Below are positions 9,855 to 63,619 of a DNA stretch of 64,000 nt, one piece after another. Position 1 is the first letter of the stretch. The number at the start of each line of letters is the position of its first letter. The notes below the pieces were generated by a model. That model did no database searches, was not told where the DNA came from, and saw nothing but the letters and a program-made list of their open reading frames with translations. This DNA is from Siphonodentalium dalli (taxonomy: Eukaryota > Mollusca > Scaphopoda > Gadilida > Siphonodentaliidae): the NCBI GenBank assembly GCA_032622095.1, contig CP136069.1, positions 120,642,126-120,706,125 of the forward strand. The letters are read 5' to 3'. A program made the position numbers and the translations under genes.

Positions 9855-9862
9855 CAGGAATT

Positions 9863-22261: not shown

Positions 22262-22964
22262 AGGAGTGTGTGCTTTTGTTTTATTCCTGTATTACAAGTT
22301 CCTTGGGGTCTAGTAGACATGATAGATTCATGTCGGGGTCATCATCCTCCAAGAGTTCCAAGGAGAGGCTCCTTTAGAAATCAGTACCGAAACTGCCAAA
22401 TATATATATATATATACAGCCGGTACCCCAACTGACCAGTATATAGGTTCAATATATATATTCATAATTAACTGAAAAATGGAAGTGGCCATGAATGGCA
22501 AAAAATGGTCAAATTTGACAAAATTAATCACGGTCACCATATCGGAGAGCTCAATCACGCGTCATTCAGTAACCACAACAAATAATTGCGTAATTTAACG
22601 CTAAATGTAGGAACTTGTTGGCTATATATGTGTTTTTTTTCAGAATTACTGACAAATTGGACCCAAAATACAACTTAAAACAGTCATTTACGGTATATAA
22701 CAGCTGGTTGCCATGGATACAGAGACCCACATAGCCATCCCAACTCGTAATAGGAACGATCTAGACCAAGAACATGTCCCATGTGCAGAAGGGATGTCAT
22801 GTTACACCAGCGATATAGATTTACGGGATATTTGTCTTGTTGAGAAAACGGTACCCCAACTGCCGCCTGGATATATATAAATATATATATATCCGGTACC
22901 CCCAACTGACCACTATATAGGTGGCAGTTTTGGCTGTTGGGGTACCATCTCTGTATATATATGA
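22262..22964. repeat. Short (~702-bp) deletion monomer
   Basis: Lacks ~117 bp between GAAGTGG and CCATGAATGG. In full monomers GTGG occurs at both borders of the missing piece, which suggests deletion between short direct repeats. An equivalent monomer with the same breakpoint lies at 28698-29399. Confidence 0.9.
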
Positions 22965-25900: not shown

Positions 25901-28900
25901 ATATATCTGTTTTTTCCCAGAATTACTGACAAATTGGACCCAAACTACAACTTAAAACAGTCATTTACGGTATATAACAGCTGGTTGCCATGGATACAGA
26001 GACCCACATAGCCATCCCAACTCGTAATAGGAACGATCTAGATCAAGAACATGTCCCATGTGCAGAAGGGATGTCATGTTACACCAGCGATATAGATTTA
26101 CGGGATATTTGTCTTGTTGAGAAAACGGTACCCCAACTGCCGCCTGGATATATATAAATATATATATATCCGGTACCCCAACTGACCACTATATAGGTGG
26201 CAGTTTTGGCTGTTGGGGTACCATCTCTGTATATATATGAAGGAGTGTGTGCTTTCGTTTTATTCCTGTATTACAAGTTCCTTGGGGTCTAGTAGACATG
26301 ATAGATTCATGTCGGGGTCATCATCCTCAAAGAATTCCAAAGAGAGGCTCCTTTAGAAATCAGTACCGCAATTGCCAAATATATATATATATATATACAG
26401 CCGGTACCCCAACTGACCAGTATATAGGTTCAATATATATATTCATAATTAACTGAAAAATGGAAGTGGGGCTATTGCGAAAATACCTAGATATTGGAGA
26501 TAGCACAATTACAAGCTGATATATTTAGTAGAATGGTGCAACCTGTTTCCAATCGGAAATGGTGCATATACATTATGTTGGTGGCCATGAATGGCAAAAA
26601 ATGGTCAAATTTGACAAAATTAATCACAGTCACCATATCGGAGAGCTCAATCACGCGTTATTCAGTAACCACAACAAATAATTGCGTAATTTAACGCTAA
26701 ATGGCGGAACTTGTTGGCTATATATGTGTTTTTTTCCAGAATTACTGACAAATTGGACCCAAAATACAACTTAAAACAGTCATTTACGGTATATAACAGC
26801 TGGTTGCCATGGATACAGAGACCCACATAGCCACCCCAACTCGTAATAGGAACGATCTAGACCAAGGACATGTCCCATGTGCAGAAGGGATGTTATGTTA
26901 CACCAGCGATATAGATTTACGGGATATTTGTCTTGTTGAGAAAACGGTACCCCAACTGCCGCCTAGATATATATAAATATATATATATCCGGTACCCCAA
27001 CTGACCACTATATAGGTGGCAGTTTTGGCAGTTGGGGTACCATCTCTGTATATATATGAAGGAGTGTGTGCTTTCGTTTTATTCCTGTATTACAAGTTCC
27101 TTGGGGTCTAGTAGACATGATAGATTCATGTCGGGGTCATCATCCTCAAAGAATTCAAAAGAGAGGCTCCTTTAGAAATCAGTACCGCAACTGCCAAATA
27201 TATATATATATATACAGCCGGTACCCCAACTGACCAGTATATAGGTTCAATATATATATTCATAATTAACTGAAAAATGGAAGTGGGGCTATTGCGAAAA
27301 TACCTAGATAGTGGAGATAGCACAATTACAAGCTGATATATTTAGTAGAATGGTGCAACCTGTTTCCAATCGGAAATGGTGCATATACATTATGTTGGTG
27401 GCCATGAATGGCAAAAAATGGTAAAATTTGACAAAATTAATCACGGTCACCATATCGGAGAGCTCAATCACGCGTTATTCAGTAACCACAACAAATAATT
27501 GCGTAATTTAACGCTAAATGGTGGAACTTGTTGGCTATATATCTGTTTTTTCCCAGAATTACTGACAAATTGGACCCAAACTACAACTTAAAACAGTCAT
27601 TTACGGTATATAACAGCTGGTTGCCATGGATACAGAGACCCACATAGCCATCCCAACTCGTAATAGGAACGATCTAGACCAAGAACATGTCCCATGTGCA
27701 GAAGGGATGTCATGTTACACCAGCGATATAGATTTACGGGATATTTGTCTTGTTGAGAAAACGGTACCCCAACTGCCGCCTGGATATATATAAATATATA
27801 TATATCCGGTACCCCAACTGACCACTATATAGGTGGCAGTTTTGGCTGTTGGGGTACCATCTCTGTATATATATGAAGGAGTGTGTGCTTTCGTTTTATT
27901 CCTGTATTACAAGCTCCTTGGGGTCTAGTAGACATGATAGATTCATGTCGGGGTCATCATCCTCAAAGAATTCCAAAGAGAGGCTCCTTTATAAATCAGT
28001 ACCGCAATTGCCAAATATATATATATATATATACAGCCGGTACCCCAACTGACCAGTATATAGGTTCAATATATATATTCATAATTAACTGAAAAATGGA
28101 AGTGGGGCTATTGCGAAAATACCTAGATAGTGGAGATAGCACAATTACATGCTGATATATTTAGTAGAATGGTGCAACCTGTTTCCAATCGAAAATGGTG
28201 CATATATACATTATGTTGGTGGCCATGAATGGCACAAAATGGTCAAATTTGACAAAATTAATCACGGTCACCATATCGGAGAGCTCAATCACGCGTTATT
28301 CAGTAACCACAACAAATAATTGCGTAATTTAACGCTAAATGGTGGAACTTGTTGGCTATATATGTGTTTTTTTCCAGAATTACTGACAAATTGGACCCAA
28401 AATACAACTTAAAACAGTCATTTACGGTATATAACAGCTGGTTGCCATGGATACAGAGACCCACATAGCCACCCCAACTCGTAATAGGAACGATCTAGAC
28501 CAAGAACATATCCCATGTGCAGAAGGGATGTTATGTTACACCAGCTATATAGATTTACGGGATATTTGTCTTGTTGAGAAAACGGTACCCCAACTGCCGC
28601 CTGGATATATATAAATATATATATATCCGGTACCCCAACTGACCACTACATAGGTGGCAGTTTTGGCTGTTGGGGTACCATCTCTGTATATATATGAAGG
28701 AGTGTGTGCTTTTGTTTTATTCCTGTATTACAAGTTCCTTGGGGTCTAGTAGACATGATAGATTCATGTCGGGGTCATCATCCTCCAAGAGTTCCAAGGA
28801 GAGGCTCCTTTAGAAATCAGTACCGAAACTGCCAAATATATATATATATATACAGCCGGTACCCCAACTGACCAGTATATAGGTTCAATATATATATTCA

Positions 28901-29399
28901 TAATTAACTGAAAAATGGAAGTGGCCATGAATGGCAAAAAATGGTCAAATTTGACAAAATTAATCACGGTCACCATATCGGAGAGCTCAATCACGCGTCA
29001 TTCAGTAACCACAACAAATAATTGCGTAATTTAACGCTAAATGTAGGAACTTGTTGGCTATATATGTGTTTTTTTTCAGAATTACTGACAAATTGGACCC
29101 AAAATACAACTTAAAACAGTCATTTACGGTATATAACAGCTGGTTGCCATGGATACAGAGACCCACATAGCCACCCCAACTCGTAATAGGAACGATCTAG
29201 ACCAAGAACATGTCCCATGTGCAGAAGGGATGTTATGTTACACCAGCGATATAGATTTACGGGATATTTGTCTTGTTGAGAAAACGGTACCCCATCTGCC
29301 GCCTGGATATATATAAATATATATATATCCGGTACCCCAACTGACCACTATATAGGTGGCAGTTTTGGCTGTTGGGGTACCATCTCTGTATATATATGA
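22965..29399. repeat. Higher-order repeat unit, copy 2
   Basis: Nearly identical to copy 1 with the same variant order (short monomer at 28698, AAGCTCC at 27911). Small differences exist: copy 1 has five C in CCGGTACCCCCAACTG near 18916 where copy 2 has four near 25352. The two copies are therefore not a verbatim assembly duplication. Shared order ends near 29.15 kb; the next monomers carry different variants. Confidence 0.9.
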
Positions 29400-31819
29400 A
29401 GGAGTGTGTGCTTTCGTTTTATTCCTGTATTACAAGTTCCCTGGGGTCTAGTAGACATGATAGATTCATGTCGGGGTCATCATCCTCAAAGAATTCCAAA
29501 GAGAGGCTCCTTTAGAAATCAGTACCGCAACTGCCAAATATATATATATATATATACAGCCGGTACCTCAACTGACCAGTATATAGGTTCAATATATATA
29601 TTCATAATTAACTGAAAAATGGAAGTGGGGCTATTGCGAAAATACCTAGATAGTGGAGATAGCACAATTACAAGCTGATATATTTAGTAGAATGGTGCAA
29701 CCTGTTTCCAATCGGAAATGGTGCATATACATTATGTTGGTGGCCATGAATGGCAAAAAATGGTCAAATTTGACAAAATTAATCACAGTCACCATATCGG
29801 AGAGCTCAATCACGCGTTATTCAGTAACCACAACAAATAATTGCGTAATTTAACGCTAAATGGTGGAACTTGTTGGCTATATATGTGTTTTTTTCCAGAA
29901 TTACTGACAAATTGGACCCAAAATACAACTTAAAACAGTCATTTACGGTATATAACAGCTGGTTGCCATGGATACAGAGACCCACATAGCCACCCCAACT
30001 CGTAATAGGAACGATCTAGTCCAAGAACATGTCCCATGTGCAGAAGGGATGTTATGTTACACCAGCGATATAGATTTACGGGATATTTGTCTTGTTGAGA
30101 AAACGGTACCCCAACTGCCGCCTAGATATATATAAATATATATATATCCGGTACCCCAACTGACCACTATATAGGTGGCAGTTTTGGCTGTTGGGGTACC
30201 ATCTCTGTATATATATGAAGGAGTGTGTGCTTTCGTTTTATTCCTGTATTACAAGTTCCTTGGGGTCTAGTAGACATGATAGATTCATGTCGGGGTCATC
30301 ATCCTCAAAGAATTCCAAAGAGAGGCTCCTTTAGAAATCAGTACCGCAACTGCCAAATATATATATATATATACAGCCGGTACCCCAACGGACCAGTATA
30401 TAGGTTCAATATATATATTCATAATTAACTGAAAAATGGAAGTGGGGCTATTGCGAAAATATCTAGATAGTGGAGATAGCACAATTACAAGCTGATATAT
30501 TTAGTAGAATGGTGCAACCTGTTTCCAATCGGAAATGGTACATATAAATTATGTTGGTGGCCATGAATGGCAAAAAATGGTCAAATTTGACAAAATTAAT
30601 CACGGTCACCATATCGGAGAGCTCAATCACGCGTTATTCAGTAACCACAACAAATAATTGCGTAATTTAACGCTAAATGGTGGAACTTGTTGGCTATTTA
30701 TGTGTTTTTTTTTCCAGAATTACTAACAAATTGGACCCAAAATACAACTTAAAACAGTCATTTACGGAATATAACAGCTGGTTGCCATGGACACAGAGAC
30801 CCACGTAGCCACCCCAACTCGTAATAGGAACGATCTAGTCCAAGAACATGTCCCATGTGCAGAAGGGATGTTATGTTACACAAGCGATATAGATTTACGG
30901 GATATTTGTCTTGTTGAGAAAACGGTACCCCAACTGCCGCCTAGATATATATAAATATGTATATATATATCCGGTACCCCAACTGACCACTTTAAGGTGG
31001 CAGTTTTGGCAGTTGGGGTACCATCTCTGTATATATATGAAGGAGTGTGTGCTTTCGTTTTATTCCTGTATTACAAGTTCCTTGGGGTCTAGTAGACATG
31101 ATAGATTCATGTCGGGGTCATCATCCTCAAAGAGTTCCAAGGAGAGGCTCCTTTAGAAATCAGTACCGCAACTGCCAAATATATATATATATATATACAG
31201 CCGGTACCCCAACTGACCAGTATATAGGTTCAATATATATATTCATAATTAACTGAAAAATGGAAGTGGGGCTATTGCGAAAATACCTAGATAGTGGAGA
31301 TAGCACAATTACAAGCTGATATATTTAGTAGAATGGTGCAACCTGTTTCCAATCGGAAATGGTGCATATACATTATGTTGGTGGCCATGAATGGCAAAAA
31401 ATGGTCAAATTTGACAAAATTAATCACAGTCACCATATCGGAGAGCTCAATCACGCGTTATTCAGTAACCACAACAAATAATAGCGTAATTTAACGCTAA
31501 ATGGTGGAACTTGTTGGCTATATATGTGGTTTTTTTTCAGAATTACTGACAAATTGGACCCAAAATACAACTTAAAACAGTCATTTACGGTATATAACAG
31601 CTGGTTGCCATGGATACAGAGACCCACATAGCCACCCCAACTCGTAATAGGAACGATATAGTCCAAGAACATGTCCCATGTGCAGAAGGGATGTTATGTT
31701 GCACCAGCGATATAGATTTACGGGATATTTGTCTTGTTGAGAAAACGGTACCCCAACTGCCGCCTAGATATATATAAATATATATATATCCGGTACCCCA
31801 ACTGACCACTATATACGTG

Positions 31820-31872
31820 GCAGTTTTGGCAGTTGGGTACCGGCAGTTGGGGTACCGGCAGTTGGGGTACCA
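31820..31872. repeat. Tandem GGCAGTTGGGGTACC words at the array's right edge
   Basis: The inverse motif, normally single, is present three times in tandem with ~18-bp spacing just before the last degenerate monomer. Confidence 0.85.
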
Positions 31873-32144
31873 TCTCTGTATATATATGAAGGAGTGTGTG
31901 CTTTCGTGTTATTCCTGTATTACAAGTGCCTTGGGGTCTAGTAAACATGATACACACATTTCGGGGTCATCATCCTCAAACAATTCCAAAGAGAGGCTCC
32001 TTTAGAAATCGGTACCCCAACTGCCAGAAATATATATATATACAGCCGGTACCCCAACTGACCAGTATATACGTTTATATATATATATATATATATATAT
32101 AATGAATGGAACTGTAACACCATATAGACCTATGAGTATATTTA

Positions 32145-32590
32145 ATACACTCTTAAAACAATAGGTACTCTACTACTCTGGAGTACCTACGTAGGTACTA
32201 AGCTTTGTCCCAGGGAGTACCTAATTGTTGGTACTCTAGAGTACCTACTAAATATTTCGGTTTTCTGGAGTACCTATATATTTAGGTTCTCTGGAGTACC
32301 TATATATGTAGGTTCTCTGGAGTACCTATATTTAATTTCTGTGGTGTACCTGTCCGGGCATTATGCATATAATACCCACCCGTCTTTATGTCACCGATGC
32401 CATGACGAACACGATATGAAGTGCATAGAAATACACGCTTTCTTGACACGCCCATTATATTATCTGAAGTACCAAATATCGAGACAGGTACTCTGAAGTA
32501 TTTAGGTACTGTGCATAGTACCTAGCAATTTGGTACTTCAGAGAACCAAACATATAGGTACTATGCAGAGAACCTGCCCAGATACCAAGC
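32145..32590. repeat. Palindromic GGTACTCTGGAGTACC minisatellite with inverted halves
   Basis: The left half (32160-32350) has about seven CTGGAGTACCTA-type words ~30 bp apart. The right half (32465-32580) has the complementary GGTACTCTGAAGTA / GGTACTTCAGAGAACC words. Between them is ~110 bp of unrelated sequence. The layout resembles a small foldback element, but no target duplication was found. Confidence 0.65.
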
Positions 32591-32899: not shown

Positions 32900-34075
32900 A
32901 ATATTAAAGTAAACATTATAAATCAAACATCTTAAACAGGTCTGGATGAAACACCAATCGATCTAGAATAGCCGCTTGAACCGTGTAAATATAAATATAA
33001 ATCAGACATCTTCAACAGGTCTGGGTAAACCACCAATCGATCTATAATAACACGGTTGGGCTAAAATAGACCGATCGGTCTTTCACAGCCAGCATGCATG
33101 TGGGATAAGGGGAGCATACCTTTGCGATAAATCACAAAACACCTTTGCGATAACTCGCAAACCTTTACGATAAATCTCAAACATCTTTACGATAACTCTC
33201 AGACTGCGTACTGGGTGATTATATTTTGCGATTTATCGCAAAGATGTTTGAGATTTGTCGCAATTTTTTATTGGCGCTAATGGGCTCTGTAAACATAAAT
33301 CAGACATTTCCGTGACCTGTTGCCTGCACGTGGAGTAAAATTTGTCTGAAATAATCGTCCAAATTTCTTAATTTGTGTGTAAACATTATAAATCAGACAT
33401 CTTAAACAGGTCTGAATGAACAACCTATCAATCTATAATTGCCCGGTCGGGCTAAACTAGACCGATCGGTAATTCAAAGCCAGCATGCATGTGTGATGAG
33501 GAGAGCAAATCTTTGTGATAAATCGCAAAACGACTTTGCGAAAAATCACAAACACCTTTGCGATAAATCTCAAGCATCTTTACGATAACAATAAAACTAC
33601 TTGGTGATTATACTTTACAATTTATCGCAAACATGTTTGAGATTTATCACAAAGGTTTGTGATTTATTGCAGATATATTGTTATGCGTTGGCACTAATGG
33701 ACTTGAACCATATTAAACATAGTAAATCAGACATCTTAAACAGTTCTGGATGAACCACAAATCGATCTACATGTATAATAGCATGGTCGGGCTAAAATAG
33801 ACTGATCGGTCTTTTACAGCCAACGTGGGACACGGGTAGCAAACCAATACTTACAACAAAATTAATTATGATCCTTTTTGCAGGACACCATACAATTACT
33901 TACTGAGAATATTCAAAATAAACATACATGTATACAGATATTCAAACAAACAGATTCAAATTGTCAAGAAATTTAGAGTTCCCTCTCTTACAACAGTGAG
34001 CACTGTGCCAGGAAGACCGATCGGTCTATTTTATCCCGATCAGGCTATTATAGTTAATATGTGGTTCACTCAGAC
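32900..34075. repeat. Complex ~350-450-bp repeat with GCGATAAATCGC minisatellite
   Basis: The block 'AATCAGACATCTTAAACAG...CCAATCGATCTA...AGACCGATCGGTC' recurs at about 32920, 33000 (partial), 33390 and 33720, and in reverse orientation near 34010-34070. Between blocks are runs of TTTGCGATAAATCGCAAA-like palindromes (33120-33240 and 33510-33670). Non-coding. Confidence 0.75.
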
Positions 34076-40463: not shown

Positions 40464-41786
40464 CTCATTCAGTGCCAAGTTTCCTGGGGAAAACGCTGGC
40501 CAGGACCCATGTTTCCTGGGGGAAAAACAATAATTTACACTAGCTATATATTTAGTTTAATTATTAAATATTGGAAATAATTGAACTGACAGCAAGAATT
40601 GATATTATATAGGCCCTACTCACGAAGTTCTTTGACAATCCAATTTCGGTACTATATAGTCATCACAGGTCAAAAATTTCGTGTTGCCATGGCAACGAGT
40701 ACTTCAAATTAAGACCGATTGTGTGAAATTACAAATCTGTTTTATGTGACCATCTAACTAACCTATTCTGTGCAGTTTTATGCATTTATTTTGCTGGTGG
40801 AATAACATAGCATTATGTTATGGCAAAGATCGGAATTGGGGGCGGGGGTGATAAATGGGACCCTTCGAATTTTCTAAATGGGATGACGTTTAAAATAACC
40901 GATTTACTAGAGAAGCAGATGACAAAACAGAAAACAATTTGAAAATCAATCGCTTCCGTTCGGTAGGCCTACAGCAATCGTTCTATAAATGTGCGGCGTA
41001 TACTTCCAGTTCGTGTGATACACGTATCTACATGTACAGAGTCAATGAATCATTATTTTGGGCCATCGGAGTAACCCGGTGACAATTCTATCGAATTCAG
41101 CGTATCGAAAAACCTCTCACTACCAAATTTCAGTTCGATATATTAAACGATATAAGAGCAAGCTTACAGTTTTCTATAGTAATTTATCATCGTAATTTGG
41201 CGAACCACTTAAGGTACATAGTTTGATTGACGTAATGCGCACGTTGTCCAAATCATCGTTCCTCGATCGTTTGGTGTTAAACCAAGTGTTCGATGGATCA
41301 GGGAATGACCGACTTGATAGTAATCGCCCTTTACTCAATCGAAATTGGTTTCCAATTAACAGATCTGTACGGTGTATACGTTGACCTTTCAGAGTGTTTG
41401 AACTCTGCAAGACTTTAGTCACGCCCACAAAACACAATTTTTCACCACCTATATTTAGACGGCTCTATCTCCTGAATGCCTCAATGTACGGAGCTGCCCG
41501 ATACATCGTTTGAATGGAGATATCTTCGGCTCGGCCATGGTTTACAAGTTGAATATGCGCATGCGCATATAAACAGACCACCCGCCCAACCCCCCCAATG
41601 AAAATTATCACCAGGCATGACTTGTAATCTGCAGTGTTTTAAGCATGTACACCAATATTAAAACTGTGAGTTTTTCGCCCAGTAGAGCATGTTTTAAACG
41701 AGATATTCTGAGCGACGGATATATCCGTCGCCGGCACATGGATGGCGCTTTCGGGCGACGGATATCCGTCGCCGTCACTGAATGAG
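40464..41786. mobile_element. piggyBac-like insertion in LINE-A (non-autonomous)
   Basis: The 1323-bp element has ends beginning CTCATTCAGTG in inverted orientation and is flanked by TTAA at 40460-40463 and 41787-41790, the hallmark target of piggyBac transposons. Removing it with one TTAA rejoins the LINE frame exactly (PRMYL-KNWRPIS). Inside the right end is a palindrome-rich GGCGACGGATATATCCGTCG block. An 87-codon minus frame at 41174-41437 has no recognisable transposase motif, so the element is non-autonomous. Confidence 0.88.
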
Positions 41787-43345
41787 TTAAGGTACATCCT
41801 TGGTTTGTCCCCTTTGGGTATTAAAGTGATAATGCCCTGTTTTTGTGTGGTAGAAAGTTCCCCCTTTATGAGTGCATGATTAAGTGCATTAAGGACAAAA
41901 CTACTTAGATCGTTCCAGAAGATTTTGTAGAACTCAACTGTGTACCCATCAAGACCGGGTGACTTTCCGTTCTTCATTTTGTTCAATGCTTCAGTCAATT
42001 CGGGTAAAGTAATTTCGCCTTCAATGGAGCGGGATTGGGTTGGAGTAAGGGCAGGAACTCTAATATCAGATAATTTCGAAGTTGGGTTAATGTTCGTGTT
42101 TTGTGTGTAAAGTCTTTCACAGGATGTTTTGGTTTCTTTGATAATTTCGACCGATTCCGTGATTTTCTTATTATTACTGTCTCTTATCTCATTTATAGAT
42201 TTGGATAAGTGTTGTCGTTTTTCGAGATTTAAGAAGTATTTTGTCGGTTTTTCGCCTTCTTCAATATATTTAGCTTTTGTTCGTGTCATAATACCTTCTA
42301 TTTTATATTTCCTTATAGCCTGTAGTTTAATTTCTATGTCTTTCAAATCGTCTATCATTTTGTTCATAGATTGAGCATCCGATGTCGCGAGCTCTTGTTC
42401 TATTTCGACTTTTCTTTGTATTAATTTATCTTCGTCGCTAGATTTCTTTCTTTTCAAGCGAGAAGAATATTGAATTGTTTTTCCTCTGATGTCAAGTAAC
42501 AATGCGTCTAGGAATAAAGAGTCTGATATGGTAAAATTATTCGGTGCCAGACCGCCAATGGAGTTTGTTTTTTTATATCTTTGAATACTTTCAGTTATGG
42601 TATTCCTGACGATATTTTTATATTCTTCTCTGAAGTTCCAGAATCCGCGTCCTTGTTTGATGTTATTTACCTTAAGTTCTATATTAATTATCGAGTGATC
42701 TGTACGATAGCCCGGAAGTATGTCTAATGCATCAGAAACGAGATTAAGGCGGTCGGATGAGATCAGAAAAAAGTCAAGCCTTGCCATTTTTAATGGAGAT
42801 GTTCTGCGCCACGTATAACGTTTAGTTGTGGGATTTATAAGACGCCATGGATCGATTAAACCATATGTATGAGACATTGCCTCTTCTTCCGTTTTTGCTT
42901 GAGTATTATTGGTATGGAGATAGTTGTATGTGTCAAGTTTTTGGTCCTGAACTAGATTCCAATCACCGCATATTATTACCTGAGTGTTCCCAATGGAGGC
43001 AATTTCATCGTTGGGTCCGTAAATAACTGCTAGTGTAACGCGAATTTCCTCTAACGAGATATCCAAGAGAATATAGTTACCATTTTTATCTTGCATAGAA
43101 TTGTGTAATTCAAATTGAAACGTATTTCGAAACAAGACGGCCACGCCTCTGGACTGTGAGTTATAAGAAGATAATTTGCACTCAAACCCCCATTCGGATC
43201 TTATTATGTTCTCTTGGTCTTTCGTGAAGTGTGTGTCTTGAAGACAGTACATCGAACCATTAATAGACTTCACGTGGTCCAATACATCACGTCTTTCTTG
43301 CTCTGATTTAACCCTCGGCAGTTCAATGATATGATCTTAACGGTA
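41787..43345 (-). pseudogene. LINE-A ORF2, endonuclease and RT start
   Basis: A long minus frame (43282-41639, 547 codons) encodes an apurinic-type endonuclease domain: CLQDTH (residues 13-18), SRGVAVLF (44-51), ICGDWNL (104-110), RLDFFLIS (168-175) and TDHS (194-197). It is followed by a Lys/Glu-rich linker and the start of the L1-type RT (SPGLDGYTVEFYK, then LIPKGDKPRMYL). Upstream, IISLNCRGL is visible near 43325 but lies in another frame because of an indel near 43290, so the element begins at or before about 43345. The last ~50 codons of the frame read into the piggyBac-like insert. The endonuclease nicks target DNA for target-primed reverse transcription. The element belongs to the L1/Tx1 group. 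No ORF1 was seen upstream. Confidence 0.92.
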
Positions 43346-44449: not shown

Positions 44450-44899
44450 AGATTTCATACATAATAAACAATAATAAACCACTAAAATATACCACTCCTG
44501 GTTATAAAAGTTTGCATGTGTTACTTTAAAAATGTTGTAGTTCGTATTAAGGGGGATAGCATTTGACCCAATCAGGAGTATGTGGCTGGACATGAATTTC
44601 TTTTCTATTTACATGAAGCATTCATTTCTGATTTGATTGTATCTTGGGCAGACTAATATGAATTGAACTGCACTTTCTATGTCACCACATGTACACTTGT
44701 TGCTTTCTCTTAAGTGATTTTCATAGAGGTCTATATTAAGGCTGCTGCATTTGTGTCGGAGTTGTGTATGAATAATTTGGGCTTTTCGATTTGAGAAAAA
44801 ATCTAAGTGAAACGTTCTTCTTACGTTGAGGCGCTCTCCTGCATCTAGTGGTGATTTAAATAATTCAAAGGATTATGCTGTTTTCAATTCAGGGCGATT
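44450..44899 (-). pseudogene. LINE-B C-terminal piece with zinc knuckle
   Basis: The minus strand reads RPELKTA, stop, SFELFKSPL, then FFSNRKAQIIHTQLRHKCSS, LNIDLYENHL, the knuckle KCTCGDIESAVQF...CPRY, and after another stop LLIGSNAIPLNTNYNIFK. This order (RNA-binding Cys motif after LRxxCSxLN) is typical of the C-terminus of Jockey/CR1-superfamily LINEs. It continues the frame of the piece at 45411 once the 511-bp MITE is removed. At least two stops make it inactive. Confidence 0.8.
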
Positions 44900-45410
44900 G
44901 GCTGCGGACACACGTATGACAGTAGCGATGGCATAGTAGGTGTGACAATTAATGATGGTGCAATTTTGGTGACAATTGGTCGTCATATTCCTGTGCCATA
45001 GCGAGACATGTCGCCCGCCGCACATTCGCGCAATGAGTCTCTTCCATGCTCTATCAGCGTCGATATCGACATCTCAATGATTTATCAAACCGAATGTCTA
45101 GTCGCTGTTGATCGTTACTCAACACGCAATGTGATATTTTTAATGCTAACACACAAGATAATTCTGGACGATCGGTCGTGCAATTTTATGTATCGTAGAT
45201 AATACAATGTGGCTAAACGTAATGAGTAGAGATCAACCTTGGTGAAACTCAATGGGTTAATTGGTCAGTCGACTCACTGTGCGAATATGCGGCGCGCGAC
45301 ACGACTCACTATGGCATATAAATTATGTTGACCAATTGTCACCAAACTCTACCATAATTAATTGTCACACCTACTATGCCATCGCTACTGTGGTACGTGT
45401 GTCCGCAGCC
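44900..45410. mobile_element. 511-bp MITE with ~80-bp inverted repeats, inserted in LINE-B
   Basis: Ends begin GGCTGCGGACACACGTA, and the inverted match continues through GTAGCGATGGCATAGTAGG and GTGACAATTAAT to about 80 bp. The flanks carry ATT at 44897-44899 and 45411-45413 (3-bp duplication, PIF/Harbinger-like). Deleting the element and one ATT restores LINE-B in frame on the minus strand (LWYDN-RPELKTA). No coding capacity. Confidence 0.88.
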
Positions 45411-46355
45411 ATTGTCGTACCATAATCTGGTTGCAGAGATGGCAGAAAATAGTCCATGTATGAAGATTGATCGGAACGAGGGGCCTTAGTGTGGTTTTCC
45501 TAAAGGGATATCTTTCTGCACCAGGGTTCTCATGGTTCACCATGTTATGTAGATACCGAGGAGATGATCTGTGGAACATTTTGTAAAATTGCTGCATTTT
45601 GATTTTTTGCGATTCCCAGCCAAGATCAGAGATTATATTATCTGTTCTAATATTTCGCGTTGCTCCTGAAACTCTTCTTGCCTCTTCATGTTGAATTTTT
45701 TTGAGACGGTCACTCAGTGTTTTGCCACAGTTGTCCCATACTGGTGCAGCATATTCTAATACTGGGCGGATAAAAGCAAAGTATACTTTTTGAAGGGTAT
45801 TTCTAGATAACACATGTTTATATTTCCTCATGAGGTTAATTCTTTTCCATGCCTTGTCAGTAATCTCATCAATGTGCGCAGTCCACGTACCATCAAACGT
45901 GACTCCAATATGTCTATGAGACTTTACTTCTTCAACAGTACTATTTGCCATTATAAGAGAGAGGTGGCTTGGGGGTTGTTGTTTACGGGAAATAAGAAGG
46001 GTTTCGGTTTTTAGTTCATTGAATGTAACAAGCCATTGAGTGGACAAATCCACCAGTCTAGAAATATCCATATTAATAAAATCGGCTGCTTAATCGGGTT
46101 CTTCTACGGTTAAAAACATAGGCGTGTCATCAGCAAACAGTCGAATATAACAAGAACGTGTTCTGATATATCATTGATGTAAATTAGAAAGAGGAGAGGT
46201 CCGAGTATATATCACTGAGGTACACCAGCTCTAACATTATTCCATTCTGTATTGTCATCTACAACCACTCTTTGCTGGCGATTTGATAAGTATGACTCAA
46301 AAAGTTTCAGCAAATTACCAGTTATGCCTATGTGTTCCATTCTGTAGATGTAATA
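45411..46355 (-). pseudogene. LINE-B reverse transcriptase, C-terminal half
   Basis: On the minus strand: MEHIGITGNLLKLFESYLSN, RQQRVVVDD, AGVPQ-stop-YILGPLLFLIYINDI, then in another frame LFADDTPMF (the catalytic box as FADD), then after a stop a 228-codon frame (46071-45385) with WLVTFNELKTETLLIS, HIGVTFDG, LEYAAPVWDNCGK and RRVSGATRN. These are RT and thumb/connector motifs of the CR1/Jockey superfamily. At least two stops and two frameshifts are present. It continues leftward into the piece at 44450-44899 after a MITE. Confidence 0.9.
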
Positions 46356-49285: not shown

Positions 49286-49413
49286 TTCTGTAATTTCAGT
49301 ATATATTATATCTATTTTGTTACGTATACTTTGTGGGTTAAGCAAGATGGGACAAGCACTATCGTGCAGAATAGACCAGTATGTACAAAAGTTTCAATCG
49401 CCATGTCGATAGC
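49286..49413. repeat. Start of dispersed repeat family B
   Basis: From about 49330 the sequence matches the family B text (CACTATCGTGCAGAATAGAC, GTACAAAAGTTTCAATCGCC, GATAGCTTGAGCGGAAACGG) that recurs through 56.6 kb. Confidence 0.6.
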
Positions 49414-49803
49414 TTGAGCGGAAACGGCACTGTTAACACCTAACTTGCGGCCGGTTCCGTCATGTACGCAAATTCCAAAAAAAGGCACCGACCGCACCTC
49501 CCCTGGCTGACTGGCCACGGACATGGACATCATATCATGCAGCGAATACCCCTCTGCGTCCATTGGCGATCGGGCAAGTCGCTAGCTGTAGTGGAAGTGA
49601 ATAAATTGACCCATACGCTGCTGTCGAATTCACTATGTATCTACATAAAAACGCCGAATATAACACCCACCGACCGCACCGCCACCAGAGGATCGAGCGA
49701 GATTGTGCATGCATTATCGAGCAGAAAAGACCAGTATGTACCAAAGGTCCTATCCCAAAGTCGATAGCTTGATCGGAAACGGCACTATAAACCCTAACTT
49801 GCG

Positions 49804-50196
49804 CTGAAATGGTCATTTTCACCCCCTTTCATTCAGTTGGGTACCAGCTTTTTAAAACTTTCAGTTGGGTACCCAGCTTTTATAAAAATTTACATTTGGG
49901 TACCCAGCTTTATGAAACCAGTCGATCTGCAGTACCTATGTCCTATGCATACAATTCCTCTCCGCTATTATTTTCAAGCATCGTGACGAATTTACATCGT
50001 AATTCATATATAAATACGTATTCACACATTTAACAGGTTAATTTCGCAATCAAGTGACGACAATCACTAATTAAATCACGCTATGTGTGAGATTTCATAC
50101 CCAAATGTAAATTTTACAAAAGCTGGGTACCCAACTGAAAATTAATAAAAGCTGGGTACCCAACTGAAGGAAGGGGGTGACAGTGACAATTTCAGG
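49804..50196. mobile_element. Mutator-type MITE, 393 bp, copy 1
   Basis: Long inverted ends (about 100 bp): CTGAAAT, then GTCA, then CACCCCCTT, and subterminal CAGTTGGGTACC(C)AGCTTTT repeated two to three times per arm. It is inserted in a family B unit and bordered by CTAACTTGCG at 49794-49803 and at 50197-50206, a 9-10-bp duplication. The uninterrupted family B text (CTAACTTGCGGCCGGTTCC) at 49441 shows the empty site. Long TIRs and a 9-10-bp duplication point to the Mutator/MULE superfamily. Non-coding; short frames here are chance. Confidence 0.82.
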
Positions 50197-50602
50197 CTAA
50201 CTTGCGGCCGGTTCCGTCAGGTACGCAAAATCCAAAATGGCACCGACCGCACCTACCCTGGCTGCCTGACCACGGAAATGGATCATATCATGAAGCGAAT
50301 ACCCCAGCGTATCCATGGCCGATCAGGCAAGCCGATAGCTTAGCGGAAGTGAATAAATTGTATCATACGCTGCTGTCGAATTCGCAATGAATGTATGCAC
50401 AACGGGGACCGAACGTAATGGTGCATGCTTATCGTGCAGAGTACACCTGTATGTACCAAAGTTACAAACACCAAGTCGATAGCTTGAGCGGCCGTCAGGT
50501 ACGCAAAGTACATATCATGCAGCGAATACCCCTCTACATCCATATCCGATAAGGCAAGCCGATGGCTTAGCGGAAATTAATAAATAAACCCACACACGGC
50601 TC

Positions 50603-50997
50603 AGGGACGTGGCTAGAGGGTGTCCGTTGGGGTGTCCGCCTTGGGAAATTACAACTGCAGCCCCCTTGAATCGGAATCAGACCAAACACAAGTTTTGCAT
50701 AATTCCATTTGTACCCCCCATTGCACCTCAGCGCTCAGGCCTAATATCAAATATCTTCATAAACCTTGGTTCTATATTCCCGGCATGAGAACATTCAGAT
50801 ATTTTAACCTGAAATTTGCATAAATCCTAACATCTAGTGGTCTAACTCCAGACAAGTGCACACGGCTACGGACAAGAGACCAGGGCACACTGGGCCGACC
50901 AGTGTTGTTCGGCCTGGTGTGAGAACATTTTGAAAACGATACAAGAAAATCGCAAATCCTAGCATCTAGACTGGCCTCAACTGAAGCTTTCCTAGTG
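50603..50997 (+). repeat. Family A repeat, truncated copy
   Basis: Begins GGACGTGGCTAGAGGGTGTC and follows the order of the 5.6-kb copy (TTGCATAATTCCATTT, TTCTATATTCCCGGCATGAG, GACAAGAGACCAGG). It is cut at the duplication junction. Confidence 0.85.
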
Positions 50998-52581
50998 TTG
51001 AGCGGAAACGGCACTGTTAACACCTAACTTGCGGCCGGTTCCGTCATGTACGCAAATTCCAAAAAAAGGCACCGACCGCACCTCCCCTGGCTGACTGGCC
51101 ACGGACATGGACATCATATCATGCAGCGAATACCCCTCTGCGTCCATTGGCGATCGGGCAAGTCGCTAGCTGTAGCGGAAGTGAATAAATTGACCCATAC
51201 GCTGCTGTCGAATTCACTATGTATCTACATAAAAACGCCGAATATAACACCCACCGACCGCACCGCCACCAGAGGATCGAGCGAGATTGTGCATGCATTA
51301 TCGAGCAGAAAAGACCAGTATGTACCAAAGGTCCTATCCCAAAGTCGATAGCTTGATCGGAAACGGCACTATTAACCCTAACTTGCGCTGAAATGGTCAT
51401 TGTCACCCCCTTTCATTCAGTTGGGTACCAGCTTTTTAAAACTTTCAGTTGGGTACCCAGCTTTTATAAAAATTTACATTTGGGTACCCAGCTTGATGAA
51501 ACCAGTCGATCTGCAGTACCTATGTCCTATGCATACAATTCCTCTCCGCTATTATTTTCAAGCATCGTGACGAATTTACATCGTAATTCATATATAAATA
51601 CGTATTCACACATTTAACAGGTTAATTTCGCAATCAAGTGACGACAATCACTAATTAAATCACGCTATGTGTGAGATTTCATACCCAAATGTAAATTTTA
51701 CAAAAGCTGGGTACCCAACTGAAAATTAATAAAAGCTGGGTACCCAACTGAAGGAAGGGGGTGACAGTGACAATTTCAGGCTAACTTGCGGCCGGTTCCG
51801 TCAGGTACGCAAAATCCAAAATGGCACCGACCGCACCTACCCTGGCTGTCTGACCACGGAAATGGATCATATCATGAAGCGAATACCCCAGCGTATCCAT
51901 GGCCGATCAGGCAAGCCGATAGCTTAGCGGAAGTGAATAAATTGTATCATACGCTGCTGTCGAATTCGCAATGAATGTATGCACAACGGGGACCGAACGT
52001 AATGGGGCATGCTTATCGTGCAGAGTACACCTGTATGTACCAAAGTTACAAACACCAAGTCGATAGCTTGAGCGGCCGTCAGGTACGCAAAGTACATATC
52101 ATGCAGCGAATACCCCTCTGCATCCATATCCGATAAGGCAAGCCGATGGCTTAGCGGAAATGAATAAATGAACCCACACACGGCTCAGGGACGTGGCTAG
52201 AGGGTGTCCGTTGGGGTGTCCGCCTTGGGAAATTACAACTGCAGCCCCCTTGAATCGGAATCAGACCAAACACAAGTTTTGCATAATTCCATTTGTACCC
52301 CCCCATTGCACCTCAGCGCTCAGGCCTAATATCAATTATCTTCATAAACCTTGGTTCTATATTCCCGGCATGAGAACATTCAGATATTTTAACCTGAAAA
52401 TTGCATAAATCCTAACATCTAGTGGTCTAACTCCAGACAAGTGCACACGGCTACGGACAAGAGACCAGGGCACACTGGGCCGACCAGTGTTGTTCGGCCT
52501 GGTGTGAGAACATTTTGAAAACGATACAAGAAAATCGCAAATCCTAGCATCTAGACTGGCCGCAACTGAAGCTTTCCTAGT
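50998..52581. repeat. Tandem duplication, copy 2 (1584 bp)
   Basis: Begins at TTGAGCGG right after CTAGTG, i.e. a family A body joined abruptly to family B. At the other end (52580) the sequence after CTAGTGTTG continues into the rest of family A, so copy 2 retains the original right neighbour. The shared bases at the join (TTG) suggest unequal exchange or replication slippage at microhomology. Confidence 0.95.
51388..51780. mobile_element. Mutator-type MITE, 393 bp, copy 2
   Basis: Same element carried along by the 1584-bp tandem duplication, not an independent insertion: flanks and duplications are the same as in copy 1. It differs at a few bases (GGTCATTGTCACC here against GGTCATTTTCACC). 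Confidence 0.85.
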
Positions 52582-53262
52582 GTTGAAATTTCAAATCTCA
52601 TACTCCCCATCAGGTTGGAAAATTATACGATGACCATTTCAGTCCACAAGTTTGACCAGATGTAGTAAAATAATGTTTTGTTAAACTAATAACAGTTTTA
52701 TATTGGCCACGGGGGAGGGATAATGACACACCAGGCCGACTATGGTTCGACCTGGTGTGCGAAAATCGCAAAATTCTAGCATCTAGACTAGCATCAAGCC
52801 TTCCTAGAGTTGGAAATTTCAAACACTTAGGTTGAAAAATTTCCAACTGATGACAATTCCAATGACAATGTTGACCATATGTATGACAATATTGTTTTCT
52901 TAGATTAACTAGCAGTATTCGACTGGCCACGGAGGAGGGACCAGGACACAAGCTTTTCAAGTGTTGGACATTTCCAACCTTTCACCCCCCTAAGGTTGGA
53001 AAATTTCCAACTGATGACCATTTCAGTCCAAAAGTTTGACAAAAAAATAGGAAAATATGAAAATATTGGTCCAAAAACAATTACCCCCCCCCCCACCCCC
53101 CCCCCAATATATTGTTTGAAAATAAACTACAAGAACATTTTCAACCTATTGATGGTGTGAATTTTCCAACTAATGTTTTGGCAGGTATGAAATTTCCAAC
53201 TGTTGAAAATTTTGAACAAAGTTGGGCGGGGGGGGGTGAGACACCATCCAAACCCCCTGTCG
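52187..53262 (+). repeat. Family A repeat, full-length-like copy
   Basis: Same start as above and continues to a G tract and GTGAGACACC at 53262, giving a unit length of about 1.07 kb. TTGGAAAATTTCCAAC words recur every ~150-180 bp, so the family itself looks like a diverged internal tandem. Poly-C tracts lie at about 53084-53105. Confidence 0.8.
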
Positions 53263-53269
53263 CCATGTC

Positions 53270-53730
53270 TCTCACACTGCTGCTGAATTCGCTATGAATG
53301 TACGCAAAAACGCCGAAAATAACACCTGCCGACCGCACCGCCACCGGTGAACCGAGCGAGATGGCGCATACATTATCGTACACAATACACCTGCGTGTAC
53401 CAAAGTTCCATCCCCAAGTCGATAGCTTGAGTGAAAACGGCACTGTAAACCCCTAACTTGCGGACGGTTCCGTCAGGTACACAACATCCAAAACGGCACC
53501 GTGGGCGTTCAGACAAGTAGACACAACTGTCGAATTCGTGATGGATGTACGCAAAACCACAGAGAAAACACCCAACGATTGCACCGCTACCAGGGGACCG
53601 AACGAGATGTGGCATTCATTTTCTTGCAGAATATACATTTATGTACCAAAGTTCCAATCCTCAAGTCGATAGCTTCAGTGAAAACGGCACTATTAACCCC
53701 TAACATGCGGACGGTTTCGTTTGGTACAAA
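53270..53730 (+). repeat. Family B repeat units left of FB2
   Basis: Two partial units: CTGCTGAATTCGCTATGAATGTACGCAAAAACGCC-type text appears at 53280 and 53535 (shown here only in outline), each followed by CCGACCGCACCGCCACC or its variant, GTACCAAAGTTCCA, and GAAAACGGCACTNTNAACCCCTAAC. No coding potential is convincing. Confidence 0.75.
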
Positions 53731-55542
53731 GGGCGCAGGGCGTTTCGGCACGTGGACGTTTCGGCACCTGGTTTTCTGGACGTTTCGGCATCTGGATTTT
53801 CGGCACTTATTTCATTTTCTTTTCTTTTCATATATAATATTGTCTTTGATGTTGCATTTATATTTCGCCGTTTGTTGTGATTCGGTAGTACATACTGAAG
53901 CTTGTTTACACAGTCCAGTGGATGCGACATTGAAAGCAAATGTTCGCCGTGTGTTGTACGTCCTTTGGACCTTTGGTGGTTATCACTTTCCATAATAACT
54001 GAAGTATGTCAACCGATTGGGAGATAATGTCAGAGAGTTCTTTATCTTGGTGGCCTTTTATATGCACAATGGAGGAAACGGGTTTCCTCATATTAGTCAA
54101 TCAATCTCGATGCCAATGGCCCAGAATTTGATGTTATTAAGCAGTTTTTTACTCAACTCCTTGTTTGACTTTCTAAAAGGCTTTCTGGTTCACCTGCCAG
54201 TGCTTTACGCTGGCTATTTCTCAGTCATTCTAGGTGAGGGGACGCCTATCCCAACAGACATGTTACCTGGTCTGACAGCCACTTACCTATAATGGTTGCA
54301 CATATTATTGGGCCAGAGTAGGCACATAATTATACCCCACAACATCATGGCTTTTTTCTGTTCGGCAAAATTACATCCATACTGCATGGTTTAAAATGAA
54401 ATTGTCGTGCCGCATGATTAAGTAACATGTTTATTAACCAAGTTTATCACAATGTGATACCTTTACAGAAGAGCAGAGAATAATGTCCGAGATATATTTG
54501 AAAAATCAACTTTTGTACCACATATTGTGGACATTTTGCAAGTCAGCTTGAGTATATTTTTCTAAAATCAGTGTGACGCATCTAAGACGGATCAAAACAA
54601 TAAACACAAAAGATAGTTCAATTTTACTTTACTGTTTTCAAATAAACGCTCTTTATTGCTACCATATCAGGAATAGACATGGAACGCTCTTTTCTGGTCC
54701 TTGCCGTGCACATAGCTATTTGTTTGGGACCAAACACTAATGTTGTTTCAGTCAGCATATAACCAGAAGGGATACATTCATCACTTTCTGCGGAAGGTGC
54801 TTTCCTTGCCGTTTCTGCCAGCCGAGCAAATAACTCCGACTTTCGACTACCTCAGTGGCCTCGTCGATGCCAATTCAACTAAGCTCAAACAAGTCATGCG
54901 CTACGTCAGCGACCTTGGATAGACGGCCCAGTGTTCGACGTCAACTGCTGGAGTGTGTATATGTGTAGCGTCCGTATCAACAACGACGTTGAAGGATTGT
55001 ACAACGCACTGAACTCCAGAGTCTCCATCAGAGGTCAGGTGCCCTTTTATTTGCTGATTGAAGAGCTGTACCTTGATTGGAACTGTTATCCGAAGCGAAG
55101 ATTTTCCGAAACCAGCGAAGGACATCCAGCGAGACACAGGCGAAGTTGTTTGACTTATGGTTCCGTAACGCAGAGAGGCGCATCTATGCAACTTCACTCC
55201 TAGAAGCTAATGTCGGCTTGTATGTCCTCACCTAGAGACATTGTTCATAACATGTTGTGTTAATCCGATCAGCATTCTTTCTTTAGCATTGGATGACTTG
55301 TGCTCTTGATATGTTCACCATCGTTACCATTCGTTCCACCAAGTGTTCATTTTTGTTTTATCACATTTTATTGAAATAAAGAATAAAACAAAAAATGTAG
55401 TCTTCACTCATAATTTCGTTGGTCTGAAAATTAGCAGGCGCCGAAAAATCCAAAGTGCCGATAATTCAGGTGCCGAAACGTCCAGGTGCCGAACGGCAAC
55501 CACAGGGGCCGAAATGTCCACGTGTCGAAACGTCTAGCATTC
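53731..55542. mobile_element. Foldback-like element FB2 with MULE transposase remnant
   Basis: The left arm (53731-53812) contains four GACGTTTCGGCACCTGG-type units. The right arm (about 55432-55542) has the reverse complement, CCAGGTGCCGAAACGTCC. GGTACAAA flanks both sides (53723-53730 and 55543-55550), an 8-bp duplication in a family B target whose uninterrupted form reads TCAGGTACGCAAAATCC elsewhere. The ~1.6-kb core carries a MULE-type transposase fragment (54749-55200). In Drosophila the foldback FB-NOF elements are also Mutator-superfamily, so arm structure, duplication size and transposase type agree. The core left of 54740 has no recognised coding sequence. Confidence 0.8.
54749..55203 (+). 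pseudogene. MULE-type transposase, C-terminal fragment
   Basis: Plus strand: QSAYNQKGYIHHFLRKVLSL, PFLPAEQITPTFDYLSGLV, then after a one-base frameshift near 54915 WIDGPVFDVNCWSVY, SVRINNDVEGLYNALNSRV and GQVPFYLLIEELY. I recognise the phrases LPFLPAEHI...F and RTNNDVEGWHxxLN...PFYLLI as those of the C-terminal part of MULE-domain transposase-related proteins in invertebrates; a Glu follows NNDV as expected. The N-terminal catalytic part is not seen. It ends in a different, Arg/His-rich context at about 55203. A TTTCAG just before QSAYNQ may be an old splice acceptor. The fragment is inactive. Confidence 0.75.
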
Positions 55543-55550
55543 GGTACAAA

Positions 55551-55720
55551 ACATCCAAAACGGAACCGACCGCACTTCCCCGTGCTGCCTCACCACGTAA
55601 ATGGACATATCATGCAGCGAATACCCCTCTGCGTCCGTGGGCAATCGGACAAGTCGCTAGCTGGAGCGAAAGTGTGAATCAAATAGAAAAAAACTACAAA
55701 AGGCACCGACCCTTGCTGTC
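55551..55720 (+). repeat. Family B repeat unit, plus orientation
   Basis: Continues the family B target of FB2: ACCGACCGCACTTCCCCG, then ATATCATGCAGCGAATACCC, then CAAGTCGCTAGCTGGAGCG. Confidence 0.8.
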
Positions 55721-60260: not shown

Positions 60261-60615
60261 TGTTATATAAACGTGGTGATGTTGTACATGAGTGGCATAA
60301 TTATGTTGTTCAATAAAGGCTATATGATTATACAGGCTGTATAAGTATGTCTCGCCCGCACGCCAATAACGTTGCATGCGCATGGAGGGTCACTCTCACC
60401 CATGCACCCAAAACCACTGGTACACAGGGTATGCTATCGGCGATGACGCAGTTGTGTAAAATGTGCAGCCAATACGCCAAGGATTATATAGCAAACAATA
60501 TGTAATCGGGGTTCACGATTAGATGAATATTGACATATAATCGCGACCACAGGATGCACGCGATGTTTCCATTGAACATCAGAATATTGTATATCATATA
60601 TTCCCATATCCCATA
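60261..60615. other. No feature seen
   Basis: AT-rich spacer without recognisable repeats or genes. Confidence 0.5.
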
Positions 60616-61264
60616 AGGTGACACTCCACAGTTTCGAATGATCAGTAGGGGTGATTTTATAGATATAAAGTGCTAGTGGTTTCTGGCACCATTAATGTGG
60701 TATGTATATTAAGACAAGGTGGGATATGAATTTGTGTAAGTTTAGAAGGTGTTCTCGACTGATGAAAAAATTAAGTGCAAGTGACCTTGACCCCACCCAT
60801 AGACAGCAGTAGCGTTTTCTGCGAAACAGTGGCTCTAGATACTGGGTCAATTTTTTAGCACCCAAAATTTGTCATCTGCATTAAAAATTGATTTTATGGA
60901 AAATTTAACGGCGAAAGTTTGAAATTTTTTCACATTGATGTTGGAAGCCAGAGGCCTCTAAACCAACATAGGTGACCATGCTTGAAAAAATCTGGTATTC
61001 GTGCCTCTTGGGTATGAAAATTCAATATTTTGGTCATTTTTTGAATAAAAATCACATTTTCGATCAAAAGATCAAGGGCCATAACTCTTGATAGCCCATA
61101 TATTATGGAAATTATGTATCAAATTCTGAATGCCTATTCTGTACTAATTTCAGGCATATATATATTGTCTATATGGTTTGGGATCATAATCCAGATAAAT
61201 TTCAATGAATCTATGGGCCCCCTATTTATGGGCCCATACCTGTTGAAACTGTGGAGTGTCACCT
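60616..61264. mobile_element. 649-bp TA-flanked MITE, copy 1
   Basis: Perfect inverted ends AGGTGACACTCCACAGTTTC, flanked by TA on both sides (60614-60615 and 61265-61266), as for Tc1/mariner-type elements. No coding frame. Almost identical to the copy at 62089. Confidence 0.92.
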
Positions 61265-62088
61265 TAAAGACCAGCAAATAGCACCATTATCATCTGTCAA
61301 CTTGACATATATTTACATTGAAAATCATTTTTAGCAAATCTGCTCAGTTAGAAGGAACATTTTATGTTAAATACACCATTCTTTTATGGATATTCCAATA
61401 CAGGTGGCCTTTAGACATATAAATTGGTGGGGATATGTAGTCTTGGAGCAGGGGGGGGTGGTTCATGTGTATTGTTATTGATGATTTTTTAGATGATGGG
61501 TACTTCTTCATGACATCATGCTCCTTGAATCTTAGCTGAAAAGGCTGACATTGACATTACACAGTATACTAAAAGATTAGATATTCAGTCTTTCTTATTC
61601 ACAAGTGTGAAATATAATAATTCAGGTTTCCCTGGACATATTTCACTTGACAACATATTGTTCATGTGATGTCATAACCGTGTATAGCTTTCCCTTAATG
61701 CTAAATAAGACTTGGAATTGTTTAACCCATGGTTTTGGGAGAGTATTAAAGATAGTAGTTGCATGAAATATTATGTTTTATTTTGATATCTGAGGAAAAT
61801 ATGCATCTCATAATATATTTTATACAACATTTTATCATTTCAGACATTTTTCAAGCTATAAATGATGGTTGAATATATACATTTTGTCACTACGTCAAGC
61901 ATAACGTCACTGGGTTCTGAAAGACCCAAAAGAGGTGAAATCATGGGGGTGCATGTAAATCCCCACCCAATCTTGCTGCCTGTGATTGCAATAACGCATG
62001 GGGTGTAATATATCATTTTAAGCGGTATAATGCAGAGAATATGGAGGTGTGGTCCCTATTAAAGATTAGTGAAATTGCATTCCTCTTA
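61265..62088. other. Spacer between two MITE copies
   Basis: About 0.8 kb of AT-rich sequence with no supportable gene or repeat. Confidence 0.5.
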
Positions 62089-62737
62089 AGGTGACACTCC
62101 ACAGTTTCGAATGATCAGTAGGGGTGATTTTATAGATATAAAGTGCTAGTGGTTTCTGGCACCATTAATGTGGTATGTATATTAAGACAAGGTGGGATAT
62201 GAATTTGTGTAATTTTAGAAGGTGTTCTCGACTGATGAAAAAATTAAGTGCAAGTGACCTTGACCCCACCCATAGACAGCAGTAGCGTTTTCTGCGAAAC
62301 AGTGGCTCTAGATACTGGGTCAATTTTTTAGCACCCAAAATTTGTCATCTGCATTAAAAATTGATTTTCTGGAAAATTTAACGGCGAAAGTTTGAAATTT
62401 TTTCACATTGATGTTGGAAGCCAGAGGCCTCTAAACCAACATAGGTGACCATGCTTGAAAAAATCTGGTATTCGTGCCTCTTGGGTATGAAAATTCAATA
62501 TTTTGGTCATTTTTTGAATAAAAATCACATTTTCGATCAAAAGATCAAGGGCCATAACTCTTGATAGCCCATATATTATGGAAATTATGTATCAAATTCT
62601 GAATGCCTATTCTGTACTAATTTCAGGCATATATATATTGTCTATATGGTTTGGGATCATAATCCAGATAAATTTCAATGAATCTATGGGCCCCCTATTT
62701 ATGGGCCCATACCTGTTGAAACTGTGGAGTGTCACCT
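62089..62737. mobile_element. 649-bp TA-flanked MITE, copy 2
   Basis: Same length and ends as copy 1, with very few substitutions (for example TGTAATTTT against TGTAAGTTT, and TTTTCTGG against TTTTATGG). Left flank TA (62087-62088); right flank reads AA, probably a point change. Confidence 0.92.
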
Positions 62738-63002
62738 AATATGCCAACTATAGCGAATAATCGAGATATGAAATTCAACGAAAAAGCGAAATAGGAAAAT
62801 ACAGCGAAATAGCGGAATAAAAAAATGCAGCGAAATTTAGAAATAGGTAATTATTATTATTGACGAAATAACGGAGATATTTGAAGAAGAGTTTTTAACC
62901 AAATAACGGATATATTTGAAAAAGTGTTCTAAAGTGCGAAATTATTCTTATTAACGTAATAACGGAGATATTTGAAGAAGCGTTTTTAACGAAATAACGG
63001 AG
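62738..63002. repeat. AACGGAGATATTTGAAGAAG minisatellite
   Basis: From about 62855, units of ~38-45 bp with ATAACGGAGATATTTGAA(G/A)AAG and GTTTTTAAC recur three to four times. Before it, short AGCGAAATAG words recur. Confidence 0.75.

Positions 63003-63034
<32 letters not shown>
63003..63034. repeat. AAT microsatellite
   Basis: About ten tandem AAT units. Confidence 0.95.
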
Positions 63035-63619
63035 TTCACCAGAGTTGATAAATTGTGGAGTTGCAATTTCTCATACATTTCATTATTCATTATTTCATTA
63101 TTTCAATATTTCGTCAAAATATATTATTTATAGAGTTATCACCCTTCAGATTAAATATGATGATGTATACTCAATCGAAACCACCCGTGCCACCTGTGGT
63201 CCGATCATATGCCAATAGCCATCTAATCGTGAACCACGATTAACTATCTTTTGGTACTCACGTGTGCGTATTTGGTGAAAATATGTTACTGAAAGTCGAT
63301 TTTTTTAAGCTTGACAGATATATAGCTCTACCTATATGTGGTCGCATCTGATACTGATATAATCATATCCCAACTTTCTAAGTCTTAAATCGATCGCGTC
63401 AAATAAACACGTGGACTGATTAGAAGAACAGCCCGCGCCTGTACGAGTTTGTCAACAACATTACTCCCGGGCAGTCCATCTGAAATTATATTCGCAAAGG
63501 TAAGTATAGTTGAGCAAGCTATATTCGTTCCCACACCACCTGTTTCTGTTCCGATCTCTAGGAAATGTTATGCATGATTATATTGTTCCGATCGGTTTTT
63601 AGTCTATATAGCCTACATA
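63035..63619. other. No feature seen
   Basis: A 62-codon plus frame at 63055-63243 lacks any motif. GTTCCGATC words recur near 63549 and 63585. Confidence 0.5.

Follow-up and report, generated by a model that had tools for sequence, protein, structure and literature searches.

A probable foldback Mutator-like element inserted with an 8-bp target duplication into a family-B repeat

Results

Within the window, i.e., the whole 64-kb stretch of DNA that was analysed, an insert of 1,812 bp (53731-55542) lies between exact 8-bp copies of GGTACAAA at 53723-53730 and 55543-55550 on the + strand and interrupts a family-B repeat, which continues on the same strand to the left (53274-53730) and to the right (55543-55674) of the insertion. 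The 8-bp target duplication at the element ends, as claimed in the earlier note, was confirmed: within ±25 bp of the insert ends, GGTACAAA and its own 7-bp sub-words are the only exact repeats of 7-12 bp, and the duplication abuts both ends. Among 20,000 random pairs of places, drawn outside the satellite array, approximately 6.3% shared 8 bp somewhere in the surrounding ±25 bp; this figure is slightly low, as a few skipped pairs near the window end were left in the denominator; at fixed placement, 17 out of 200,000 random pairs matched over 8 bp. Taken alone, the duplication of GGTACAAA is moderate evidence for insertion, and what decides for an insertion are the family-B copies that lack the insert.

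For this comparison the two flanks were joined into one sequence, in which a single surplus G separates them, and this sequence served as a BLAST query against the window. The search returned 13 pieces, comprising the two flanks themselves, seven pieces crossing the junction without the insert, and four one-sided pieces. The crossing pieces are located at 49402-49573, 50197-50305, 50998-51157, 51781-51889 and 53415-53501 on the plus strand and at 56484-56311 and 56124-55964 on the minus strand. Since two pairs among the seven stem from a tandem duplication of ~1,584 bp (1.58 kb; 99% identity), they represent about five independent empty sites, in agreement with the claim that the target is family B and that an empty site exists nearby. 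Each of the seven harbours a single diverged counterpart of the duplicated sequence at the junction, clearest at 53476 (GGTACACA) and poorest at 56124-55964, and a tandem copy was detected at none of these uninterrupted family-B places in the window. The comparison of empty and filled family-B copies, which had been named beforehand as a possible refutation, revealed no tandem GGTACAAA flank at the unfilled sites and supports a true insertion into family B. A target-site duplication together with an uninterrupted comparison site, as looked for in a foldback insertion, is present at 53731-55542.

Inverted arms of short tandem repeats, the second feature by which we assessed foldback character, are likewise found at both ends of the insert. 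On the left, a terminal 10-bp sequence (53731-53740, +) is followed by an arm (53741-53808, +) of three clear 16-bp CGTTTCGGCACCTGGA-type units and one partial unit with irregular spacers, in the order CGTTTCGGCACGTGGA, CGTTTCGGCACCTGG with spacer, CGTTTCGGCATCTGGA and the partial unit. On the right, five matched 16-bp units and one partial unit in inverted orientation (55435-55532, −) precede the right terminal 10 bp (55533-55542, −), and, read on the opposite strand, this end repeats the plan of the left one with more units. The two terminal 10-bp sequences are different and match each other poorly. Tandem Repeats Finder reported periods of 16 and 24 in the left arm and 16 in the right arm. 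When allowing up to two mismatches, TTTCGGCACCTGG matched nine times in the 64-kb window (0.75 expected), with eight of the matches within the arms, three on the + strand of the left and five on the − strand of the right, both sets pointing inward, and the ninth at 45513 outside of them. The arm-to-arm alignment score of 73 compares with a maximum of 27 among 300 dinucleotide shuffles. Of the inverted arms of ~17-bp units described earlier, the inverted tandem-unit architecture holds, and the unit length has to be corrected to 16 bp with irregular spacers. The arm pattern gave 0 matches each in viral contigs and in prokaryotic contigs, both collections without animal genomes.

The core between the arms falls into two parts. 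Its left half (53809-54742, +) encodes no recognisable protein in any frame (Pfam, six frames, 0 matches), and it is followed by TTGTTTCAG (54743-54751, +), a putative 3' splice site positioned just before a MULE-like stretch. In a six-frame reading, the + strand of this stretch comprises a first frame piece (SAYNQKGYIHHFLRKVLSLPFLPAEQITPTFDYLSGLV..., 54752-54919), running to a stop at 54920, and a second (PVFDVNCWSVYMCSVRINNDVEGLYNALNSRVSIRGQVPFYLLIEELY..., 54928-55200) with PVFDVNCW, RINNDVEG and PFYLLIEELY, in which 54991-54993 encodes a candidate for the third acidic residue, E. All core motifs named in the earlier note are indeed present but split over two frames, with LPFLPAEQITPTF in one and RINNDVEG and PFYLLIEELY in the other. 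The C-termini of invertebrate MULE transposases are much like this stretch, R-T-N-N-D-V-E-G-W-H surrounding the catalytic glutamate. In the core, the motif order reads LPFLPAEQI..TF / W..Y...R.NNDVEG / PFYLLI, and the succession of LPFLPAEQI, NNDVEG and PFYLLI is what we take to be the order in invertebrate MULE C-termini; the remnant has RINNDVEGLY, compared here with the C-terminal MULE consensus R-T-N-N-x-(V/I/L)-E-G-W-H. It is by this motif that both frame pieces are assigned to a putative MULE C-terminus. Downstream, two AATAAA polyadenylation-like signals (55375-55387, +, starting at 55375 and 55382) represent a weak signal, because the element holds four AATAAA in total, two of them further upstream. 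Together, TTGTTTCAG upstream and AATAAA downstream would suit a last exon, and on the basis of the motif and the anatomy the broken, out-of-frame end of the core resembles a terminal exon from a MULE transposase.

Pfam returned 0 families for the two remnant pieces and for six read-through frames of the element. Accordingly, the MULE domain (PF10551) gave 0 Pfam matches in 53731-55542, only the candidate E of the DDE triad is present, and neither the first two catalytic residues nor a zinc finger was found in the element. The combination of FLYWCH zinc finger and MULE domain that defines the Phantom subclass was likewise not detected, with no Pfam domain in six frames; the N-terminal part of the transposase may have been lost, and with it the FLYWCH domain. 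In most arthropod MULE clades described in section 3.2 of PMC13359780, 120-135 residues separate D2 from E, and since the preserved stretch starts ~80 codons before E, D2 would fall upstream of it. With neither the first two catalytic residues nor a zinc finger found, this copy therefore cannot make a working transposase.

Searches for relatives of the remnant gave no match in the PDB or in phages, and 0 matches to the remnant motif in prokaryotic contigs. In viral contigs, 22 stretches fit a pattern derived from the remnant peptide, of which 0 were confirmed, and two degenerate motif patterns hit 1 and 11 loci; one of these 12 (L001) gave no motif-bearing frame, and inspection by eye of the 11 open frames of the others (L002-L012) revealed no MULE transposase. 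For the record that contains L002, searching with PF10551 gave 0 matches; in the same search, 3 out of 14 control genomes gave a signal. Spellings of the remnant motif retrieved no paper from open-access full text. These blank searches say little, because the viral, phage, prokaryotic and PDB collections hold no animal genomes.

Two further foldback insertions with clear duplications are present in the window. The first (8290-9854) is flanked by 8-bp CAGGAATT at 8282-8289 and 9855-9862, carries arms of 16-bp CTCCGAAGGTCCGATA-type units with an arm score of 186 (shuffled maximum 31), and showed no transposase by Pfam in the three + frames scanned. Both this element and 53731-55542 have 16-bp units with TTCGG, and a grouping into one family was considered and rejected: none of eight comparisons between their arms stood clearly above the shuffles, and the best score was reached by 6 out of 200. 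The second (49804-50196) is a foldback element of ~393 bp with ~30-bp arm units, located inside a family-B copy and bordered on both sides by CTAACTTGCG (9-10 bp), at 49794 and 50197, with an arm score of 134 (26 shuffled). The ~1,584-bp tandem duplication made a second copy of 49794-50206 near 51378-51790 (99% identity). Five other inverted repeats, whose bounds were set by eye, were rejected as the same kind of insertion, with no suitable flanking duplication of 7-12 bp within ±25 bp: at 32160-32590, 44895-45415 and 33114-33265 no 7-12 bp repeat was found within this distance of the ends, at 33505-33672 the only match (8 bp) is located inside the arms, and at 60489-63257 the only match has 7 bp. 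One of these regions holds an inverted repeat of ~142 bp (44899-45039 and 45271-45411; 86% identity, 231-bp spacer), also lacking a 7-12 bp flanking duplication, and another holds a direct repeat of 651 bp (60614-61264 and 62087-62737; 99.7% identity).

Overall, the window has the appearance of a repeat-rich animal genome. Tandem units of ~819 bp form an array of ~16.5 kb (15566-32114), in which CAGTTGGGGTACC occurs 68 times on the two strands together. This motif is close to CAGTTGGGTACC, the arm motif of 49804-50196; in the comparison of the two, the score was reached by 3 out of 200 shuffles on one strand and by 47 out of 200 on the other, a result that is only suggestive. A dispersed repeat relates 5578-7514 to 50604-53236, with several collinear stretches in the same orientation and roughly 70-84% identity. 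On the − strand, 41639-43336 contains an open frame of 565 aa with a match to the endonuclease/exonuclease/phosphatase family just below the cutoff (E 4.3e-05; 23.8 bits, cutoff 24.5), which possibly derives from a non-LTR retrotransposon.

Discussion

Considering the exact duplication, the empty sites, the arm score, the order of the core motifs and the anatomy of published relatives, 53731-55542 is very probably a Mutator-like DNA transposon (MULE) of the foldback type, in a copy that is dead and has undergone internal deletion. The reading as a foldback element with a MULE remnant, as put forward in the earlier note, is thereby retained as the best one, with the qualification that no match in the collections searched (Pfam, PDB, phages, viral contigs) confirms the MULE identity. 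Speaking against it are also the undetected first two catalytic residues and zinc finger, the W to E spacing and the rarity of MULEs in animals, the latter two described below. The core remnant would derive from the terminal exon of a transposase encoded by the element itself, and the arm units presumably served as transposase-binding sites.

Foldback elements of comparable anatomy occur in several invertebrates. In the sea urchin, the TU elements are foldback elements with arms of ~15-bp tandem repeats and 8-bp duplications. One published counterpart is Muta1 of Aedes aegypti, an intact MULE of 3,198 bp that its authors class as a type 2 foldback element. Its duplications measure 8 or 9 bp, and its arms of 145 bp combine a terminal motif of 10 bp with nine 12-bp units, which are spaced 3-4 bp apart and so recur every 15-16 bp (PMC5225508). 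Our element shares with Muta1 the 8-bp duplication, the 10-bp terminus followed by short tandem units, the 15-16 bp period and the occurrence of internally altered copies, whereas Muta1 is active in yeast and 53731-55542, at 1,812 bp, is dead; the spacing from W to E is 14 residues in the remnant and 18 in Muta1 (W401, E419). Tm1 of root-knot nematodes, assigned to the Mutator/Foldback family and the Phantom subclass, generates 9-bp duplications, has arm units of 13-15 bp (~14 bp) and asymmetric 7-bp end motifs outside the inverted repeat, and retains in Tm1-A a predicted transposase of 496 aa with FLYWCH and MULE domains; one Tm1 copy contains a nested insertion (PMC3169594). Composite arms of variable unit number, asymmetric short termini, nested insertions, paralogous empty sites and decay are common to both, whereas our element differs in its 8-bp instead of 9-bp duplication, in its arm unit and in retaining no 496-aa transposase.

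FB4 of Drosophila, judged more likely a MULE than a TcMariner element, is a foldback element as well, but with 9-10 bp duplications and arms of ~700 bp, and the same source gives a median of 0 MULEs over 100 genomes, i.e., MULEs are rare in animals (PMC8277862). Minisatellites near one end are described for Rehavkus and some Phantom elements, both MULE-type, and Rehavkus carries a PHD finger, unlike the remnant (PMC6446971); 53731-55542 is too fragmentary for placement in a clade. The earlier note had further proposed an invertebrate lineage of foldback MULEs with minisatellite arms. This does not follow, as one decayed copy cannot show a lineage; moreover, elements of the proposed kind have been published before, and the lineage would fall into a known class.

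With regard to mechanism, the best-supported account is that a MULE transposase acts on the arm arrays and moves the element by cut and paste. A transposase from the ancestor of this copy or from another copy would bind the arrays of 16-bp sites in both arms, excise the element at its termini and insert it where a family-B repeat had been cut with an 8-bp stagger; filling of the gaps by host repair would then leave GGTACAAA on both sides. In Galileo, transposase-domain binding sites are located in the tandem repeats of the long arms (PMC3688188), and the Muta1 transposase mobilises derivative elements in yeast, for which the DDE triad is needed (PMC5225508); carried over by analogy, both would fit 53731-55542.

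Other readings of the insert have to be weighed against a foldback MULE. Target duplications of 8 bp are also made by hAT elements, and the arms might come from a foldback element outside the MULEs that likewise duplicates 8 bp (for instance hAT, or P-like of the Galileo sort), the MULE-like exon being a captured passenger or a nested insertion. The duplication itself lies within the 8-10 bp range given for MULEs in PMC5225508 and is not specific to them, and of the 1,812 bp only about one quarter is MULE-like. Galileo belongs to the P superfamily (PMC3688188), so foldback arms arose in several superfamilies, the authors of Tm1 state that foldback-like elements are not necessarily related (PMC3169594), and most Muta1 derivatives have variable internal sequence (PMC5225508). 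However, the MULE-like stretch and the arms share one duplicated site, as described for Tm1-A and Muta1. In addition, MULE arms commonly consist of short tandem units, and 10 out of 12 long-arm MULE families of Aedes aegypti have short subterminal tandem repeats (PMC5225508). We therefore regard an origin of the arms in another superfamily as unlikely. That the motif match is coincidental and the insert a non-coding foldback element would agree with the broken frame and with the lack of relatives in profile and sequence searches (Pfam, PDB, phages, viral contigs), but is highly improbable given several separate motifs in the order expected of invertebrate MULE transposases, behind a splice-acceptor-like site.

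Beyond the single insert, the host might harbour several families of foldback elements, possibly MULEs throughout, whose minisatellite arms are unrelated to one another (53731-55542, 8290-9854 and 49804-50196). Since CAGTTGGGGTACC, found all through the array of ~819-bp units, echoes the arm motif CAGTTGGGTACC, foldback arms may be seeding satellite DNA. Tetris of Drosophila virilis is a reported case of such seeding (PMC4079207); for the present host we consider the whole scenario unlikely.

In conclusion, while no new kind of element is established, the insertion scar at 53731-55542 is clean and neighbouring empty sites allow comparison; the foldback MULE-like element there joins others whose arms consist of short tandem units resembling binding sites.
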